Assembly: GCF_007559335.1 (NCBI RefSeq)
Contig: NZ_VMBG01000001.1
Span: 1,178,001 to 1,242,000, forward strand
Reading direction: 5' to 3'
Length of the DNA: 64,000 bases
From: Rariglobus hedericola
GTDB lineage: Bacteria > Verrucomicrobiota > Verrucomicrobiia > Opitutales > Opitutaceae
Below, piece after piece: positions 49,768-56,618 of the stretch; position 1 is the first letter of the stretch, and the number at the start of each line of letters is the position of its first letter. The position numbers and the translations under genes are program-made. The notes beneath the pieces were generated by a model, which saw only the letters and a program-made list of their open reading frames with translations, searched no databases and had not been told where the DNA came from.

Positions 49768-51516
49768 ATGCGTCGTTTCCGTCCCTACTTTTCCTACCTC
49801 AAAGCGGTTCGCGGATCCATCATCCTGGCGCTTCTGTGCGGCATCGTCTACGGCGCCGCCAACGGCGCCGGCCTGCCATTGATGGTAAAGAAAATCTTCC
49901 CCAAGATTTTCGATCCTGAAGCGGCGCGCCTGACCGATTGGCAGCTTATGCTGATCGCGCTGTGGCTGCCCACCATCTTTGCGCTGCGTGGAGTCGCCGG
50001 ATACTTCAACAGCTACCTGATCCAATACGCCGGCACCCGCATTCTGGAGGCTTTGCGTCTGGACTACTTCCGCAAGCTGCAGGTGTTGCCCGTATCGTTT
50101 CTGCAGCGGCAAAAAACCGGCGACCTCATCTCGCGAGGCATGACCGATACGCAGACGCTGCAGACCGCGCTCACGACGTTCGCCAACGATATTTTCAAAC
50201 AGCCGACCACCCTGATCGGCGCACTGGGTTATCTGGGTTATCTGGCCTACACGGAACGCGGCGTCTGGCTGGTATTGGTGAGTATGGCGGTGATCCCGCT
50301 GTGTATCCTGCCCATTCGCTATGTAGGCAAACGCCTGATCAATCGCGCGCGCCAATTGCAAGGCCAGCTCGGTCAGGTTAGTGAACGCTTCAGCGAGAAT
50401 CTCAACGCCGCCCGCGAAGTGCGAGCTTTCAGCCTCGAGGAAATCGAAATCAACCGTCTGCGCACGCTCACCAACAGTCTGGTGGTTTCGCAGATGAAGG
50501 TGACCAAATATACCCAGGCACTCACGCCTTCGATCGAGCTCATATCGGCCGCCGGCATCTCAATGACCCTAGTGTATGCCTACAAGACCGGCCTGTCCCT
50601 GCCGGCGTTTGTCTCCATCATCACCGCACTCTACACCTGCTACGATCCCATCAAGAAACTGGGCGCGCTGCAGAACATTACCAAGATCGGCTCGGCCGCA
50701 CTGGACCGTCTGGAAGTGGTGTTAAACGCCCCCAACTCCATCGCCGACCCGGTGAATCCCGTGCCCCTTGGCCGCGCCCAAGGCAATCTCGCGTTCGAGC
50801 ATGTAGTGCTCACGTATGACAACGACACCGCGGCGTTGCGCGATGTGAGCATTTCCATTCCGGCCGGCACCACCTGCGCACTGGTCGGTCCGAGCGGCGC
50901 CGGCAAATCGACCTTCGCCAACCTCGTGCCGCGGTTTTACGATGTGTCCTCGGGTCGCATCACGTTGGATGGTGTTGATATTCGCGATGTCTCCCTCGCT
51001 GACCTTCGTCGCAATATCGCCATCGTATCCCAGGAGCCGGTGCTTTTTAACGACACTGTCTACAACAACCTTCTCCTCGGCCGCCACGACGCCACGCGCG
51101 AAGAAGTCGAACAAGCCGCGCGCGATGCGTTCGCCCACGATTTTATCTTAACCCTGCCGCAAGGCTACGAAACCATCGTGGGAGAGCGCGGCGCCACGCT
51201 CTCCGGAGGCCAGCGCCAGCGTCTCGCGGTGGCCCGTGCCTTCCTGCGAAACGCACCGATCCTCATCCTTGATGAGGCCACCAGCGCCCTCGACAGCGAA
51301 AGCGAAGCCGCCATTCAGCTCGCGCTTCGCAAACTCGTCGTGGGCAAGACTGTGCTGATTATTGCGCATCGCTTCAGCACCATTCGCGATGCCTCGTTGA
51401 TCCTGGTGTTTGATCAAGGCCGGATCATCGATGCGGGCCCGCACACCGAGTTGTATGAGCGCAACCCTCTCTACAAGGGTCTCTATAACCGCCAAGGTTC
51501 GTTTGAGACGGCCTGA
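49768..51516 (+). CDS. ABC exporter, MsbA-like (fused membrane and ATPase domains)
   Basis: The 582-residue exporter has an N-terminal six-helix transmembrane domain with VLPVSFLQRQKTGDLISRGMTDT near residue 110. A C-terminal ATPase follows, with Walker A GPSGAGKST (near 374-382), signature LSGGQRQR and Walker B ILILDEATSALDSESE, and the switch His in IIAHRFSTI. The first helices are preceded by few cytoplasmic residues. The substrate may be lipid A, a glycolipid or another lipid; MsbA-like is by similarity only. The DciA-like gene follows closely. Confidence 0.9.
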   Translation: MRRFRPYFSYLKAVRGSIILALLCGIVYGAANGAGLPLMVKKIFPKIFDPEAARLTDWQLMLIALWLPTIFALRGVAGYFNSYLIQYAGTRILEALRLDYFRKLQVLPVSFLQRQKTGDLISRGMTDTQTLQTALTTFANDIFKQPTTLIGALGYLGYLAYTERGVWLVLVSMAVIPLCILPIRYVGKRLINRARQLQGQLGQVSERFSENLNAAREVRAFSLEEIEINRLRTLTNSLVVSQMKVTKYTQALTPSIELISAAGISMTLVYAYKTGLSLPAFVSIITALYTCYDPIKKLGALQNITKIGSAALDRLEVVLNAPNSIADPVNPVPLGRAQGNLAFEHVVLTYDNDTAALRDVSISIPAGTTCALVGPSGAGKSTFANLVPRFYDVSSGRITLDGVDIRDVSLADLRRNIAIVSQEPVLFNDTVYNNLLLGRHDATREEVEQAARDAFAHDFILTLPQGYETIVGERGATLSGGQRQRLAVARAFLRNAPILILDEATSALDSESEAAIQLALRKLVVGKTVLIIAHRFSTIRDASLILVFDQGRIIDAGPHTELYERNPLYKGLYNRQGSFETA

Positions 51517-51538
51517 TCTACGCCGCCGGCCCCGTCCA

Positions 51539-51925
51539 ATGCCTCCGGAACCAGCACCTTTTTCCTTCCAGGCGGAAAAACTCATCGCCGCGTTACGCCG
51601 TGTGCCCGACACCACGCCGGCGCGTATGAAAAAGCGTCCGACCAAGGAACTCTCCGGCTTGGTCGAGGAGCTGATGATCAAATTCCAGATCGGCCGCGAC
51701 TCCCCCGAACAGTTGATTCGCGATAACTGGGCCGAGCTCGTCGGCGCCGCCAATGCACATTATTCGCACGCCGTGCAGATCGATGCGCGCGGTCGTCTCA
51801 CGATTCTCGCCGGCCACGCCGTGGTTCGCAACGAGCTCTTCATTCATCGCAAGATGATCGTCGACCGCATCAAAAAGCTTCCAGGCTGCGGACACGTGAA
51901 GGAACTGAACATCCGCGCCGGCTGA
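51539..51925 (+). CDS. DciA-like (DUF721) DNA-related protein
   Basis: The 128-residue protein has the DUF721 pattern: AEELIAALRRV-like N-terminus, then FQIGRDSPEQLIRDNWAELVGAANAHYS and LFIHRKMIVDRIKKLPGCGHVKELNIRAG. Many DUF721 proteins are DciA, which loads the replicative helicase in bacteria lacking DnaC or DnaI, so a replication role is plausible. The start ATG gives MPPEPAPFSFQAEKLI, 22 bases after the exporter stop. No frame competes. Confidence 0.8.
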   Translation: MPPEPAPFSFQAEKLIAALRRVPDTTPARMKKRPTKELSGLVEELMIKFQIGRDSPEQLIRDNWAELVGAANAHYSHAVQIDARGRLTILAGHAVVRNELFIHRKMIVDRIKKLPGCGHVKELNIRAG

Positions 51926-52189
51926 TTCCCCGCAGATCTCCTGCAAATAGATACACCAAACCCAACGCGGGCGAAATTTTCGCTTGCCGACGCCTTGATG
52001 ATTCGGGAAGTTGGCTCCTTGCGTTAGTGAAGCTCCGTCGGTTACGGGGCTCCACCATGACTGGTTTGGCACTCCGCCAAATTGGAACGGTGACGCCGGC
52101 AAACGCCGTGGTTTTCGCCACGTCGGGAGCGGGTGGCACGGGGCCTGCAAATGGTCCCCTACAGTCGTGTAACCCAGTTAAACTAAACC
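51926..52189 (+). promoter_or_regulatory. rpsO leader with several small stem-loops
   Basis: This 264-base gap contains no gene but several predicted stem-loops: TTGGC-ACTCC-GCCAA (52066-52080), CGTGG-TTTTCG-CCACG (52107-52122), and GGGGCC with GGTCCCC (52140-52159, one bulged T). The last is 30 bases upstream of the rpsO ATG. Ribosomal protein S15 regulates itself through its leader RNA in several bacteria, so this is a candidate regulatory region. No obvious sigma-70 promoter and no Shine-Dalgarno sequence is seen before the ATG (GTTAAACTAAACC). Confidence 0.45.
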
Positions 52190-52453
52190 ATGTCAACGAT
52201 CGCCAAACCCGAAATCATCTCCAACTACAAAATCCACGATACGGACACCGGTTCTTCCGAAGTCCAGGTCGCGCTGCTGACCGCTCGCATCAATCACTTG
52301 ACCGAGCACCTCCGCACCCACCGCAAGGATTTCCATAGCCGCCGTGGCCTTCTCCAGATGGCCTCCCGCCGCCGCAAGCTGCTGGACTATCTGAAGCGCC
52401 ACAACCTGCCGAAGTATAACGAACTTCTGCAGCGTCTCAGCCTCCGCAAGTAA
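52190..52453 (+). CDS. rpsO: 30S ribosomal protein S15
   Basis: The 87-residue S15 binds the central domain of 16S rRNA and nucleates platform assembly. It carries the family blocks [48 protein letters not shown] and the Arg/Lys-rich end. Length is normal. The start lacks a Shine-Dalgarno sequence and is preceded by a structured leader. A stable hairpin lies 17 bases after the stop, then the polynucleotide phosphorylase leader, the classic rpsO-pnp order. Confidence 0.98.
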
Positions 52454-52469
52454 TTGCCCCTTTAGCAAC

Positions 52470-52498
52470 ACGGGCGCCCTCATCCGGAGGGCGCCCGT
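52470..52498 (+). terminator. Hairpin after rpsO
   Basis: A perfect 12-bp GC-rich stem (ACGGGCGCCCTC with GAGGGCGCCCGT) has a 5-nt loop. It is followed by TGTCTAT rather than a T-run, so it may be a strong but leaky terminator or an mRNA-stabilising structure between rpsO and pnp. Confidence 0.75.
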
Positions 52499-52526
52499 TG
52501 TCTATCCGACACTCGAGACTAGCGCG

Positions 52527-52590
52527 GGACATTTCTGATTGCCGCCGACCATCCGTCGGAACCAACCAGAAATCTCTCGTCCAAGACGAG
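52527..52590 (+). promoter_or_regulatory. pnp leader long stem-loop, possible RNase III target
   Basis: Two arms, 52531-52549 and 52555-52573, pair over 7, then 3, then 5 bases, separated by a mismatch and a 3x3 internal loop, around the loop CATCC. Extra GGAC/GTCC pairing (52527-52530 with 52579-52582) could extend it. A second hairpin, CTCGTC-CAA-GACGAG (52576-52590), is adjacent and overlaps it. In E. coli the pnp leader has a similar long stem cut by RNase III and then degraded by PNPase, giving autoregulation; that parallel is inference here. Confidence 0.6.
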
Positions 52591-52780
52591 GATTGCGAGA
52601 CGGGTCACCCGTTCAGTTCAGATTTCAAAAATTTTCCGCCGACACCCGCGCCTCCGTGCGCGGCCTTCGCCCGCCCTTCCGGCTGGCCTGTCGTCGAAAT
52701 CCCCGAGCCGTCCCTGCCGCGTGTCGCAGGCCGTCTCTTCTATCCGCGACGCGCAACCGTATCCGAAACAGAACTACATC

Positions 52781-54997
52781 ATGTCCCTTAAGCAGAAACA
52801 CTCCGTCACGATCCCCGAACTCGGGATCACCCTGTCCACCGGCACCTACGCCGCCCTAGCCAATGGCGCGGTCAACGTTGCCGTCGGTGAGACCAACGTC
52901 TTCGTCACCGCTTGCGTCGCCGCCAGCATGAAACCCGGCCAGGACTTCTTCCCCCTCACTGTCGATTACCGCGAGAAATACGCCGCCGCCGGCCGCTTCC
53001 CCGGCGGTTACTTCAAGCGCGAAGGCCGTCCGTCCGAAAAGGAAATCCTCACCTCCCGCCTTTGCGACCGTCCTTGCCGCCCCCTCTTCCCCGAGGGTTT
53101 CCTCAATGAGGTCCAGATCATCGGCCAGCTGATGTCGGCCGACCAGATCAACGAGGCCGACATCCCCATGGTCAACGGCGCCTCCGCCGCCCTCGCCATC
53201 TCCGACATTCCGTGGAACGGACCGATCGCCGCCGTGCGCGTTGCCGAAATCGACGGCGTGTTCGTCGCCAACCCGACCATCGAACAGATGTTCCAATCCT
53301 CCCTCGACCTCATCTACGTGGGCAACGAGAAGGACATGCTCATGATCGAAGGCTCCGCCGATCAGATCCCCGAAGACCGTTTCATCGAGGCCCTCGAATT
53401 CGCGCACAACGCCATCCAGCCGATCATCCGCGGCATCAAGGAACTCGTCGCCCTCGTCGGCAAGCCCAAGGCCCACTTCGCCCTCGTCGGCGCCAGCCCC
53501 GAGGCCCGCGCCATCATCGAGCGCGTCGTCCCCACCGAGCGCATCGTCACCGCGATCTTCGGCCACGAAAAAGCCGTCCGCTCCGCCAACGTCAAGGGCC
53601 TCAAGGCCGAAGCCCACGCCGCCCTCTCGCTCGAGCTCGGCGCCGGCCGCTTCAGCGACGTGGACCTCAACGTTGTCTTCGAAGACCTCCAATACAAAGC
53701 CTACCGCAAAGCCGTCCTCGAGCGCGGCGTCCGCGCCGATGGCCGCGATGCCAAGAGCCTCCGCCCGCTCCACTCCGAGGTCGGCATTCTCCCCCGCGTC
53801 CACGGTTCCGCCTCCTTCAAACGTGGCGACACCCAGAGCATAGTTCTCACGACCCTCGGGCCGACCAAGGAGGCCCAGGACCTCGACGCCCTCACCGGCG
53901 GCGTGAAGTCCAAGAGCTTCATCCTCCACTACAACTTCCCGCCGTTCTCCGTCGGTGAAACCGGTCGCTTCGGTTCCCCCGGTCGCCGCGAAGTCGGCCA
54001 CGGCGCCCTCGCTGAGCGTTCCCTCGTCCCCGTCCTCCCGCCCGAGGATGTGTTCCCCTACTCCATCCGCGTCGTCTCCGAGATCATGGCCTCCAACGGC
54101 TCGACCTCGATGGCCTCGATCTGCGGCGGCTGCTTGTCCCTCATGGACGCCGGCGTGCCCATCATCGCCCCCGTCGCCGGTATTTCCTGCGGTCTCATGA
54201 CCGAGACCGCCGCCGACGGCTCCATCGCCAAGTGGACCACCATCACCGACATCATCGGTGAGGAAGACCATTTCGGTGACATGGACTTCAAGCTCGCCGG
54301 CACCACCAAGGGCATCACTGGCTTCCAGCTCGATCTGAAGATCAACGGTCTTCCCTTCGAGATCGCCAAGGTCGCCATCCACCAGGCCCGCGAAGCCCGC
54401 GTCGAGATCCTCAAGAACATGATGGCCTCGATCCCCGCGCCCCGCAAAGACCTCAGCGCCTTCGCCCCCCGCATCCAGACCGTGCAGATCGATCCCGAAA
54501 AGATCGGCCTCCTCATCGGACCCGGCGGCAAAACCATCCGTCGCATCGTGGAAACGACCGGCGCGCAGATCGACATCGCCGACGACGATTCAGGCAAGGT
54601 GTTTATCTACTCCAACAACGCTGAAGCCTCGGCCCGCGCCCTCCAGGAAATCGACTCCCTCTGCGGTGGCGGCAGCGGTGGTGGCGGTCGCGGCGGCAAC
54701 GCCGGCGGCCCTCCCATCGAGGAAGGCAAGATCTACACCGGTCGCGTAACCGGCGTGAAAGAATTCGGCGCCTTCGTCGAATGCTTGCCCGGCAAGGAAG
54801 GCCTCTGCCACATCAGCGAACTCGCCGACTTCCGCGTGCGCCGCACCGAAGACGTCGTGAAGATGGGCGACAGCATCACCGTAAAGTGCATCGGCATCGA
54901 CGAGCGCTCCGGCAAGGTCCGCCTCAGCCGCAAAGCCGCGATGAAAGAACTCGAAGGCCAGGGCCAGCCCGCTGCCTCCGAAGCCCCCGTCGCCTAA
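52781..54997 (+). CDS. pnp: Polyribonucleotide nucleotidyltransferase (PNPase)
   Basis: PNPase degrades RNA phosphorolytically and can add tails; it forms a trimer and interacts with RNase E in degradosomes. The 738-residue product has two RNase PH domains (residues 10-230 and 320-550). The conserved [29 protein letters not shown] and [31 protein letters not shown] blocks are visible. A KH domain follows ([20 protein letters not shown]), then a Gly-rich linker ([11 protein letters not shown]) and a C-terminal S1 domain ([21 protein letters not shown]). The ATG chosen starts [15 protein letters not shown]; upstream frame is leader. The stop is followed by an intrinsic terminator. Confidence 0.97.
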
Positions 54998-55014
54998 TCG
55001 GCACCGCTCCCCAC

Positions 55015-55045
55015 AAAGCCGCAGCCTCACCGCTGCGGCTTTTTT
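55015..55045 (+). terminator. Intrinsic terminator after pnp
   Basis: AGCCGCAG pairs with CTGCGGCT around a CCTCACCG loop and is followed by five T's. It lies 18 bases after the pnp stop. Confidence 0.9.
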
Positions 55046-55073
55046 GCGTCGTCTGACTCCGTCTCCTTTCCGT

Positions 55074-55108
55074 CTACTCGCTACCCGCTGCTCACTACTC
55101 TCTACTTC
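55074..55108 (+). repeat. Five imperfect CTACTCN heptamers upstream of surE
   Basis: CTACTCG, CTACCCG, CTGCTCA, CTACTCT and CTACTTC are contiguous heptamers (period 7), ending 12 bases before the surE ATG. The stretch is pyrimidine-rich. Confidence 0.65.
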
Positions 55109-55120
55109 TCCAGCCTCCCC

Positions 55121-55915
55121 ATGCGCCTCCTCATCACCAACGACGACGGCATCGACAGTCCGTTCCTCCACGCGCTCACCGACGCCCTCCGCGCCGCCCG
55201 CCACGACCTGCGCATCGCCGCACCCAAGACCGAGCAAAGCTGGATCGGCTGCGCCAAATCCCGTCTTCGTCCCGTCGCCTCCGCCGTCGCCATCCGCGAC
55301 TTCGGCTGCCCCGCCTGGATGATCGATGGCACGCCCAGCGACTGCGTGAGCATCGCCCTCGCCCACCTCCTCCCGCCCGACGAACCCATCGATGCCGTCG
55401 TCTCCGGCATCAACATCGGCCGCAACGCCTCCCTCGGCTTCATCCTCGCCAGCGGCACCATCGCCGGCGCCTGGGAAGGCGCCGTCCACGGGCTTCCCGC
55501 CATCGCGTTTTCACAAGACCTCACCGCCGCGCAATTCGAGGCCTACCGCACCTCCGGTCACCGCGCCGACGCCGATCTTCAACACACGCTCGACGCCTCC
55601 GCCACCCGCGCTGCGCAACTCGTGCCCGGCCTGGTCGCCTCCACGCCCGCACGCGGCTTCATCGTTCACAACGTCAACTTCCCGTATCCATGCGGGCATG
55701 ACACACCCGTTCATCGCACGATTCCCGCCCGCGTGATCGTCCCCGGCCTCTTCGGCCCCGCCGCCGATGACGGCACGCATCGCTTCATCTTCAAATTTGG
55801 CGAAGACATCTCGCCGCCCTCCCCGCTTACCGACGCCGCCGCGCTCTCCGCCGGCTTCATCAGCCACACCGTTCTTGATTACACAGCGTTGGGAACAAAC
55901 GGGTTCCCAAGCTGA
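55121..55915 (+). CDS. surE: 5'/3'-nucleotidase SurE
   Basis: SurE dephosphorylates nucleoside monophosphates and helps survival in stationary phase. The 264-residue product has the metal-binding Asp8-Asp9 in LLITNDDGIDSP, then PKTEQSWIGCAKS, VSGINIGRNASLGFILASGTIAGAWEGA and GLPAIAFSQ. The usual Ser of the SGxG loop is replaced by SWIG, a small departure. The ATG is preceded by a heptamer array rather than a ribosome-binding site. A lipoprotein gene follows 25 bases later. A cell-surface or cytoplasmic role in nucleotide salvage is inferred. Confidence 0.93.
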   Translation: MRLLITNDDGIDSPFLHALTDALRAARHDLRIAAPKTEQSWIGCAKSRLRPVASAVAIRDFGCPAWMIDGTPSDCVSIALAHLLPPDEPIDAVVSGINIGRNASLGFILASGTIAGAWEGAVHGLPAIAFSQDLTAAQFEAYRTSGHRADADLQHTLDASATRAAQLVPGLVASTPARGFIVHNVNFPYPCGHDTPVHRTIPARVIVPGLFGPAADDGTHRFIFKFGEDISPPSPLTDAAALSAGFISHTVLDYTALGTNGFPS

Positions 55916-55940
55916 CAATGGTAAGGAACAACCCCTTATT

Positions 55941-56618
55941 ATGATGAAACCTCGCACCTCACTCTTTGCCCTTTCGTTTTCGGCCGGTCTCCTCGCGCTG
56001 ACTTTGACTGGATGCTCGTCCTTCTCCGGTCGCTCCGCCGGCCCCGATGCCACCAAGCCTGTTGGAGGCAAGGCCATCAACCTCCTGCAGCTTCGCGACA
56101 ACGTAAAAGCCACCCGCGTTTCGCTCAATCGCACGACCGATGCGCTCAACCGCATCCCTACCGCACCGAACGCCCAGGAAGCTTACGCATCCTTCAGCTT
56201 GGAGCTGGCCGCCTTCAAGAAACTGTCCGCAGAAACTCTTCAGGACTCAGCCGATGTCCGTAATCGCGGCCGCGAACTGTTCACCCAGTGGGACCTCGAA
56301 ACCCAATCGATCAAGAACCCCGATATCCGCGCGATTGCCGAGAAGCGCCGTAGCGCTCTTTCCGCCTCCTATAATGAGATGATCACGCCCTTGATCACCG
56401 CTCGCGTTGATCTCGCCGATGTCACCTCCGATCTCACCGACATCCAGAAGGCCCTCTCGCTTGATCTCACTCCCGCCGGTATCGACGCCGTCAAAAAGCC
56501 CATCGATAAGATCAACCGCTCCGCCAAAACCTCGGCCAACAGCCTTGATGCATTTGCGGACAAGCTGGACAAGATCGTCGCCGAACTTCCCTCGGCCACC
56601 GTCGCTCCGGTAAAATAA
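55941..56618 (+). CDS. DUF2959-like lipoprotein
   Basis: The 225-residue lipoprotein has a signal ending LTLTGC followed by SSFSGRSAGP. The mature protein is helical and charged: LLQLRDNVKATRVSLNRTTDALNRI, ETQSIKNPDIRAIAEKRRSALSAS and IDKINRSAKTSANSLDAFADKLDKIV. It resembles DUF2959 proteins. The start ATG at 55941 has AAGGAAC upstream as a ribosome-binding site. Function is unknown; a coiled-coil envelope role is possible. A clear terminator follows. Confidence 0.82.
   Translation: MMKPRTSLFALSFSAGLLALTLTGCSSFSGRSAGPDATKPVGGKAINLLQLRDNVKATRVSLNRTTDALNRIPTAPNAQEAYASFSLELAAFKKLSAETLQDSADVRNRGRELFTQWDLETQSIKNPDIRAIAEKRRSALSASYNEMITPLITARVDLADVTSDLTDIQKALSLDLTPAGIDAVKKPIDKINRSAKTSANSLDAFADKLDKIVAELPSATVAPVK

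Follow-up and report, generated by a model that had tools for sequence, protein, structure and literature searches.

The window, a stretch of 64,000 nucleotides of the Rariglobus hedericola genome, carries rpsO and pnp in this order on the plus strand. The interval between the two genes and the leader of pnp contain several inverted repeats and hairpins, among them a long stem-loop termed SL1. The features are as follows.

52190..52453, + strand: rpsO coding sequence (ribosomal protein S15), the gene upstream of pnp; from its translation and the rpsO-pnp order in relatives
52470..52498, + strand: perfect 12-bp inverted repeat 3' of rpsO, from the inverted-repeat listing; probably the rpsO terminator
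52525..52579, + strand: SL1, conserved stem-loop of the pnp leader; from folding, inverted repeat, alignment, covariation and covariance-model search
52526..52535, + strand: 5' conserved strand of SL1, GGGACATTTC; from alignment A1
52569..52578, + strand: 3' conserved strand of SL1, GAAATCTCTC; from alignment A1
52574 opposite 52530, + strand: unpaired C.C site of SL1; from the aligned copies
52576..52590, + strand: SL2, short hairpin CUCGUC-CAA-GACGAG; from folding and the CUCG common to SL2 and the base of SL1
52600..52612, + strand: SL3, small hairpin ACGGG-UCA-CCCGU; from the inverted-repeat listing and folding
52719..52754, + strand: SL4, start-codon-proximal hairpin GCGTGTCGC / GCGACGCGC; also in members of the same genus without SL1
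52781..54997, + strand: pnp coding sequence (polynucleotide phosphorylase); from its translation and homologues

A consensus terminator scan of positions 51900-52900 listed no terminator, and a promoter scan listed nothing on the plus strand. SL3-like hairpins are seen by eye at the same place in relatives, and a counterpart of SL4 (GCGTGTTGCGG/CCGCAACACGC) is found in one relative's leader (L171). Repeated ATCCG words precede many start codons of the relatives' pnp genes.

Folding of the pnp leader

The inverted arms of SL1 extend over 52525-52549 and 52555-52579, and its helix comprises 22 positions per arm, 20 of them paired. The segment 52527-52590 folds with an energy of -22.1 kcal/mol as compared to a mean of -11.45 kcal/mol for shuffled sequences (z -3.93; 0 of 200 shuffles as good). 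The excess is smaller for the whole leader, 52500-52800 (z -1.95; 2 of 100 shuffles as good). In the initial annotation, a short hairpin adjoins a two-arm stem that is interrupted by small internal loops, about 190 bases before pnp. This description holds: the 6-bp hairpin SL2 adjoins the two-arm stem, and the pnp start codon at 52781 lies 191 bases past position 52590.

The CUCG at 52576-52579 forms the 3' base of SL1 and is also part of SL2, so that the full SL1 and SL2 are mutually exclusive. When the segment 52520-52620 is forced into either state, the energy is -36.9 kcal/mol with the SL1 base closed and -33.8 kcal/mol in the SL2 form; the minimum for 52520-52615 is the SL2 form. With energies nearly equal, the two states are close. 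The position of SL2 is supported by a YGRG motif 9-21 bases further on in 43 of 52 SL1 copies. The fifth pair of the SL2 stem forms in 19 of 34 copies, as compared to 8.9 in shuffles; the next two inner pairs are near the shuffle level (13 versus 10.2 and 18 versus 15.6). Since one of three inner pairs exceeds the shuffles, SL2 as a switch is offered as a suggestion only.

Covariation and distribution of SL1

Copies of SL1 were compared in alignment A1, from which L017, L022 and L078, judged to be chance matches in or near coding sequence, had been dropped beforehand. The consensus strands are 5' CGGGACAUUUCCGnUUGCCGCC and 3' GGCGCCAAACGGAAAUCUCUCG. Over the 20-pair helix in 52 distinct copies, 91.8% of the cells pair. 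Compensatory changes, which the initial annotation had named as the check on the structure, proved abundant in the SL1 copies, with two-sided changes in 13 of the 20 pairs. Cells with two-sided changes number 64 versus 18.0 in shuffles, and on each of five measures all 500 shuffles stay below the alignment itself. Sliding the partner strand lowers pairing to 24.7-53.4%, and RNAalifold on the same 52-copy alignment returns the same helix with 18 pairs. Watson-Crick switches were counted over eight pairs on a quick PNPase tree, which holds the 34 of 52 copies with more than about 150 PNPase residues in the locus. They amount to at least 7, 1, 3, 3, 3, 2, 4 and 2 (sum at least 25), other pair types being left out of the count. 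A chance stem or a repeat was rejected in view of the covariation and of the single place that the element occupies in its own genome. SL1 is an RNA helix under selection.

The lower half of SL1 is almost invariant (GGGACAUUUC/GAAAUCUCUC); the upper helix and the apex vary freely. Within this conserved part, alignment columns 6 and 85 pair in 0 of 52 copies (CC in 45, AC in 4, CU in 3). In a wider, pattern-based collection, which includes some antisense or off-locus readings, the mismatch position is pairable in 3 of 70 copies. One of these (L006) is a true G.U exception, one (L032) an antisense reading and one (L231) an off-locus match.

The family of the window (f1, probably Opitutaceae) is represented by 150 genomes, 120 of them good. 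By DNA search the element was recovered from 30 of the 150. rpsO and pnp lie on one strand in 26 of these 30 loci, with gaps of 215-476 bases; as to the remaining ones, placement is inconsistent in L137, a pnp start is missing in L141 and L145, and rpsO in L142. The covariance model R1, built from the 52 distinct SL1 copies, matches at E <= 0.05 in 124 of the 150 genomes and in 103 of the 120 good ones, the neighbourhood having been read for a minority of the matches. In its own genome R1 matches one place, with 62.1 bits in sense versus 35.2 in antisense orientation. A search of the order gave 26 matches in 273 genomes, all of them in family f1; two records of unstated family (L015, L018) carry SL1 with 53.3 bits each. 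By tblastn, SL1 lies between rpsO and pnp in 33 of 52 copies. Of the other 19, 17 come from 1-kb stretches upstream of pnp that failed the tblastn check, and two are L137 and L142. In 44 copies the distance from the end of SL1 to the pnp start codon is 42-350 bases (median 197), exceeding 100 bases in 39 of them. The SL1 stem is thus real, and it is family-wide rather than private to this genome.

PNPase was sought in 24 genomes, namely 21 that were listed without a model match in the family and order searches and the three same-genus relatives G002, G008 and G012, and a strong match was obtained in 18. Thirteen of these 18 leaders were read, including those of the three same-genus relatives. 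Seven keep SL1, albeit with an extended apex or deviating letters (L160, L161, L162, L165, L166, L168, L171), five are without it (L157, L158, L159, L163, L164), and in one it is decayed (L170). Because seven model-negative leaders still carry SL1, the figure of 124 in 150 genomes is a lower bound. The apex of SL1 tolerates inserts of around 100 bases. SL1 is dispensable, as it is absent in G002, G008, G012, G076 and G107 and decayed in G133; the three same-genus relatives among them retain SL4. With filters off, R1 on seven SL1-less leaders (four from other families of the order, three from the genus) gave a best E of 0.097, for a palindrome in G012.

Repeat-like palindromes occur in the apical loop of SL1 in several leaders (L162, L165, L166, L168, L171, L005, L082), and in two others (L157, L159) they stand in place of SL1, as if mobile repeats insert there. 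The apical repeat-like hairpins of some relatives lie outside the conserved element. One draft genome (G154) has two contigs with rpsO and SL1 (L235, L236) and a listed contamination of 6%; its double SL1 is probably due to a mixed assembly.

A sister form in other families of the class

In Limisphaerales, Verrucomicrobiales and relatives, the intergenic sequences contain a comparable stem ahead of pnp, with GGGAAAUUUC facing GAAGUUCCUC. Among 14 copies of this sister form, 44 cells show two-sided changes as compared to 17.5 in shuffles, a count that none of 500 shuffles attains. The number of pairs with two-sided changes, 12 of 28, is less telling, since 9.2 are expected and at least as many arise in 17 of 500 shuffles. 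The core contains a position that is never paired, neither in the 14 aligned copies nor in 44 pattern-collected ones; compared with the unpaired position in SL1 it is shifted by one step. Between the end of the sister form and the pnp start codon there are about 10-28 bases. As this distance is 42-350 bases for SL1, the downstream step may differ between the forms.

Each form was searched with the model of the other. R1, trained on SL1 copies alone, was run with filters off on 73,644 bases, which comprise 11 of the 14 sister loci. It placed seven leader elements in its top eight matches, with E from 0.0069 to 1.6; in 4 of the 11 loci the element was not found whole. R2, trained on the sister form alone, was run on 22 SL1 loci (85,326 bases) and found 10 of the 22 SL1 elements, 8 of them in its top nine matches, with E from 0.0039 to 2.1. 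The cross-form scores are each weak, and it is the ranking that counts. Both forms align without gaps in the helix. The combined set has 101 cells with two-sided changes versus 34.1 (0 of 500 shuffles); its number of pair types is unremarkable (54 of 500).

A combined model, R3, was used for a gene-blind search of 384 genomes of the class. At E <= 0.02 it matches 65 genomes, of which 28 belong to the family and 37 to 14 other families. Outside the family, 36 genomes match with E < 1e-4, and in every one of them the match lies between rpsO and pnp. The sister core is recovered by pattern in 35 of these 36 matches, L229 being clearly divergent. Four of the 36 (the genomes of L059, L066, L067 and L081) apparently served in training R3, and 32 appear independent. 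R2 alone matched 3 of 337 genomes of the phylum, one strongly and at pnp and two weakly and not at pnp (G032, G434). These two weak matches, the weak R1 matches in the phylum (G468, G408, G611) and the weak R3 matches in the class (G870, G858:C20) do not lie near pnp and were treated as false. SL1 and the sister form are two related forms that extend across several orders and, in the loci examined, keep to the rpsO-pnp interval.

A third kind of pnp leader stem is seen by eye in Chthoniobacterales, Verrucomicrobiaceae and unplaced records (L043, L050, L063, L035, L047, L044, L046, L048, L058, L060, L039). In it, UUAGGUUUUAG stands opposite UUAAAACCUAC, or CUAGUCUUAG opposite CUACGAGCUAG, and variants occur. 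For two of these loci (L043, L058) Rfam gave no match apart from a tRNA.

Role of SL1 and comparison with known leaders

SL1 is a genuine covarying RNA structure and, at the loci examined, always part of the pnp leader. By far its likeliest role is therefore the control of pnp, which we strongly infer. By analogy to E. coli, and not by proven descent, we slightly favour a class-wide cis-acting leader element that serves as an RNase III processing stem with PNPase feedback. RNase III, which is encoded in the same genome, would cut the SL1 helix. The cut would leave a duplex, from which PNPase would remove the 5' strand, starting at its 3' end. The pnp mRNA would then be destabilised or refolded, the freed CUCUCG being able to form SL2, and PNPase would thereby limit its own synthesis. 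The invariant block and the mismatch may fix the position of the cut or may be read by PNPase itself. Cleavage by RNase III together with feedback by PNPase is the most likely mechanism, with about an even chance of being the right one. The RNase III gene was found in 21 of 22 genomes searched (E 1.1e-57 in the window's own genome), five SL1-less genomes included; the one genome in which the search did not detect it, G011, carries SL1. As the gene is present in SL1-less genomes and was not detected in G011, the presence of RNase III alone does not explain SL1. E. coli RNase III generally needs less strict sequence conservation than SL1 shows, which points to an extra reader.

A protein reader could also act without RNase III. 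SL1 might be a binding site of PNPase or of another RNA-binding protein, which represses translation or protects the mRNA without cleavage; the sister form, which ends so close to the start codon, would then act directly on the ribosome-binding region. We consider this reading possible, if rather improbable. It accords with the fixed mismatch of both forms, around which the sequence hardly varies, and with the confinement of strong matches to pnp, as observed in the own genome and the 36 class genomes examined. However, the long paired helix exceeds the need of a binding site, and SL1 is mostly separated from the start codon by over 100 bases. For PNPase itself the KH and S1 domains speak against it, since they generally bind single strands. 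S15, the product of the adjoining rpsO, might likewise read SL1 and so coordinate rpsO and pnp. S15 recognises a G.U/G-C kind of pair in 16S rRNA, and SL1 has a conserved G.U followed by G-C, the G.U occurring in 63 of 70 and 40 of 44 pattern-collected copies. Yet it is replaced by A-U in 7 of the 70 and by G-C or A-U in 4 of the 44, the predicted fold lacks a three-way junction and an Rfam match is absent, so that we regard this reading as highly improbable.

CsrA is the least probable of the candidate readers. The proposal is that SL1 works through it as on the processed pnp mRNA of E. coli, which Park is said to have reported in 2015. Direct control of E. coli pnp by CsrA is likewise stated in an excerpt of a further paper (PMC7652899). 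By eye, many copies have a GGA 3' of SL2, and csrA is present in the own genome. However, only 27 of 56 relatives have csrA; seven genomes that are at least 96% complete carry SL1 but give no csrA match (G003, G004, G013, G014, G021, G029, G030), and the same-genus relatives G002, G008 and G012 have csrA without SL1. CsrA as a general reader was rejected, as csrA does not track SL1. A DNA element with an inverted repeat, serving pnp as promoter or operator, would explain the inverted arrangement, but it is very unlikely: the covariation includes G-U pairs and the upper helix is variable, the spacer between the conserved arms varies widely and accommodates the long apical inserts, and the sense strand scores far above the antisense strand. 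We also give very little credence to SL1 as part of a separate small RNA between the two genes. In E. coli, sraG is annotated in the same interval, but antisense, whereas SL1 lies on the pnp sense strand and the sister form reaches almost to the pnp start codon.

RNase III processing with PNPase feedback thus remains our preferred reading, and it may be extended. SL1 and the sister form might be members of one RNA family that spans the class, has a sequence-specific core read at pnp alone and acts as a switch driven by processing; we put this forward tentatively and consider it doubtful as a whole. The proposed common core is GGGANAUUUC facing GAA(A/G)U(C/U)(U/C)CUC around the fixed mismatch. 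Cutting, and trimming of the 5' strand by PNPase, would free CUCUCG for SL2 and thus set the fate of the mRNA. If this is true, the level of PNPase would be sensed by its own leader via a defined recognition sequence, unlike in the loosely specified E. coli stem. A strongly covarying and apparently undescribed leader RNA extends over several orders of a poorly studied phylum. PNPase autocontrol is a textbook case in E. coli, and a repeated invention of leader-stem control becomes testable. The invariant core with its fixed mismatch offers a handle on the choice of cleavage site or on a protein reader, and SL1 is a ready candidate for a new Rfam family. Rfam models on positions 51000-56000 of the window gave four matches up to E = 5, all below the gathering score and none overlapping SL1, and on three other loci, one of them with the sister form, only a tRNA. 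In a literature search no description of the element was found, as far as the accessible text of the sources goes (PMC3071783 included).

Among known systems, the E. coli pnp leader resembles SL1 in lying in the same rpsO-pnp interval and in forming a long imperfect stem (leader z -5.05), and an RNase III gene is present in both genomes. In E. coli the mRNA is shorter-lived once RNase III has cut it 5' of pnp (PMC5371410, PMC2834685; excerpts), and a second stem-loop of the rpsO-pnp intergenic region is processed by RNase III (PMC5872136, excerpt). SL1 differs from the E. coli stem in its almost invariant block with a fixed mismatch. R3 on the E. coli leader (L175) gave no match up to E = 2. 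A 10-mer, CGAGGATGCG, lies 3' of the stem in this leader and in three Opitutaceae leaders (L030, L142, L092), which may be chance. The initial annotation had suggested ancient or convergent control. The element is indeed old within the class, where the sister form precedes pnp in 14 other families, but the R3 search lends no support to an origin shared with the E. coli stem. Judged from the sequences compared, shared descent of the Verrucomicrobiota and E. coli stems cannot be claimed, and the evidence fits convergence. Precedent for RNase III cleavage of an rpsO-pnp stem comes from E. coli as well as from Streptomyces (PMC5872136, PMC5371410; excerpts). In Streptomyces coelicolor an intergenic hairpin that RNase III cuts lies past the rpsO terminator and upstream of pnp (PMC5872136, excerpt), a placement like that of SL1. 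S. coelicolor belongs to a different phylum, and four promoters are described for its locus; the likeness considered is one of position. The species listed as having PNPase repressed by RNase III also include B. burgdorferi, S. coelicolor, S. pyogenes and C. jejuni (PMC8708148, excerpt). With such control described outside E. coli, its occurrence in a distant phylum would be less of a surprise than the initial annotation took it to be.
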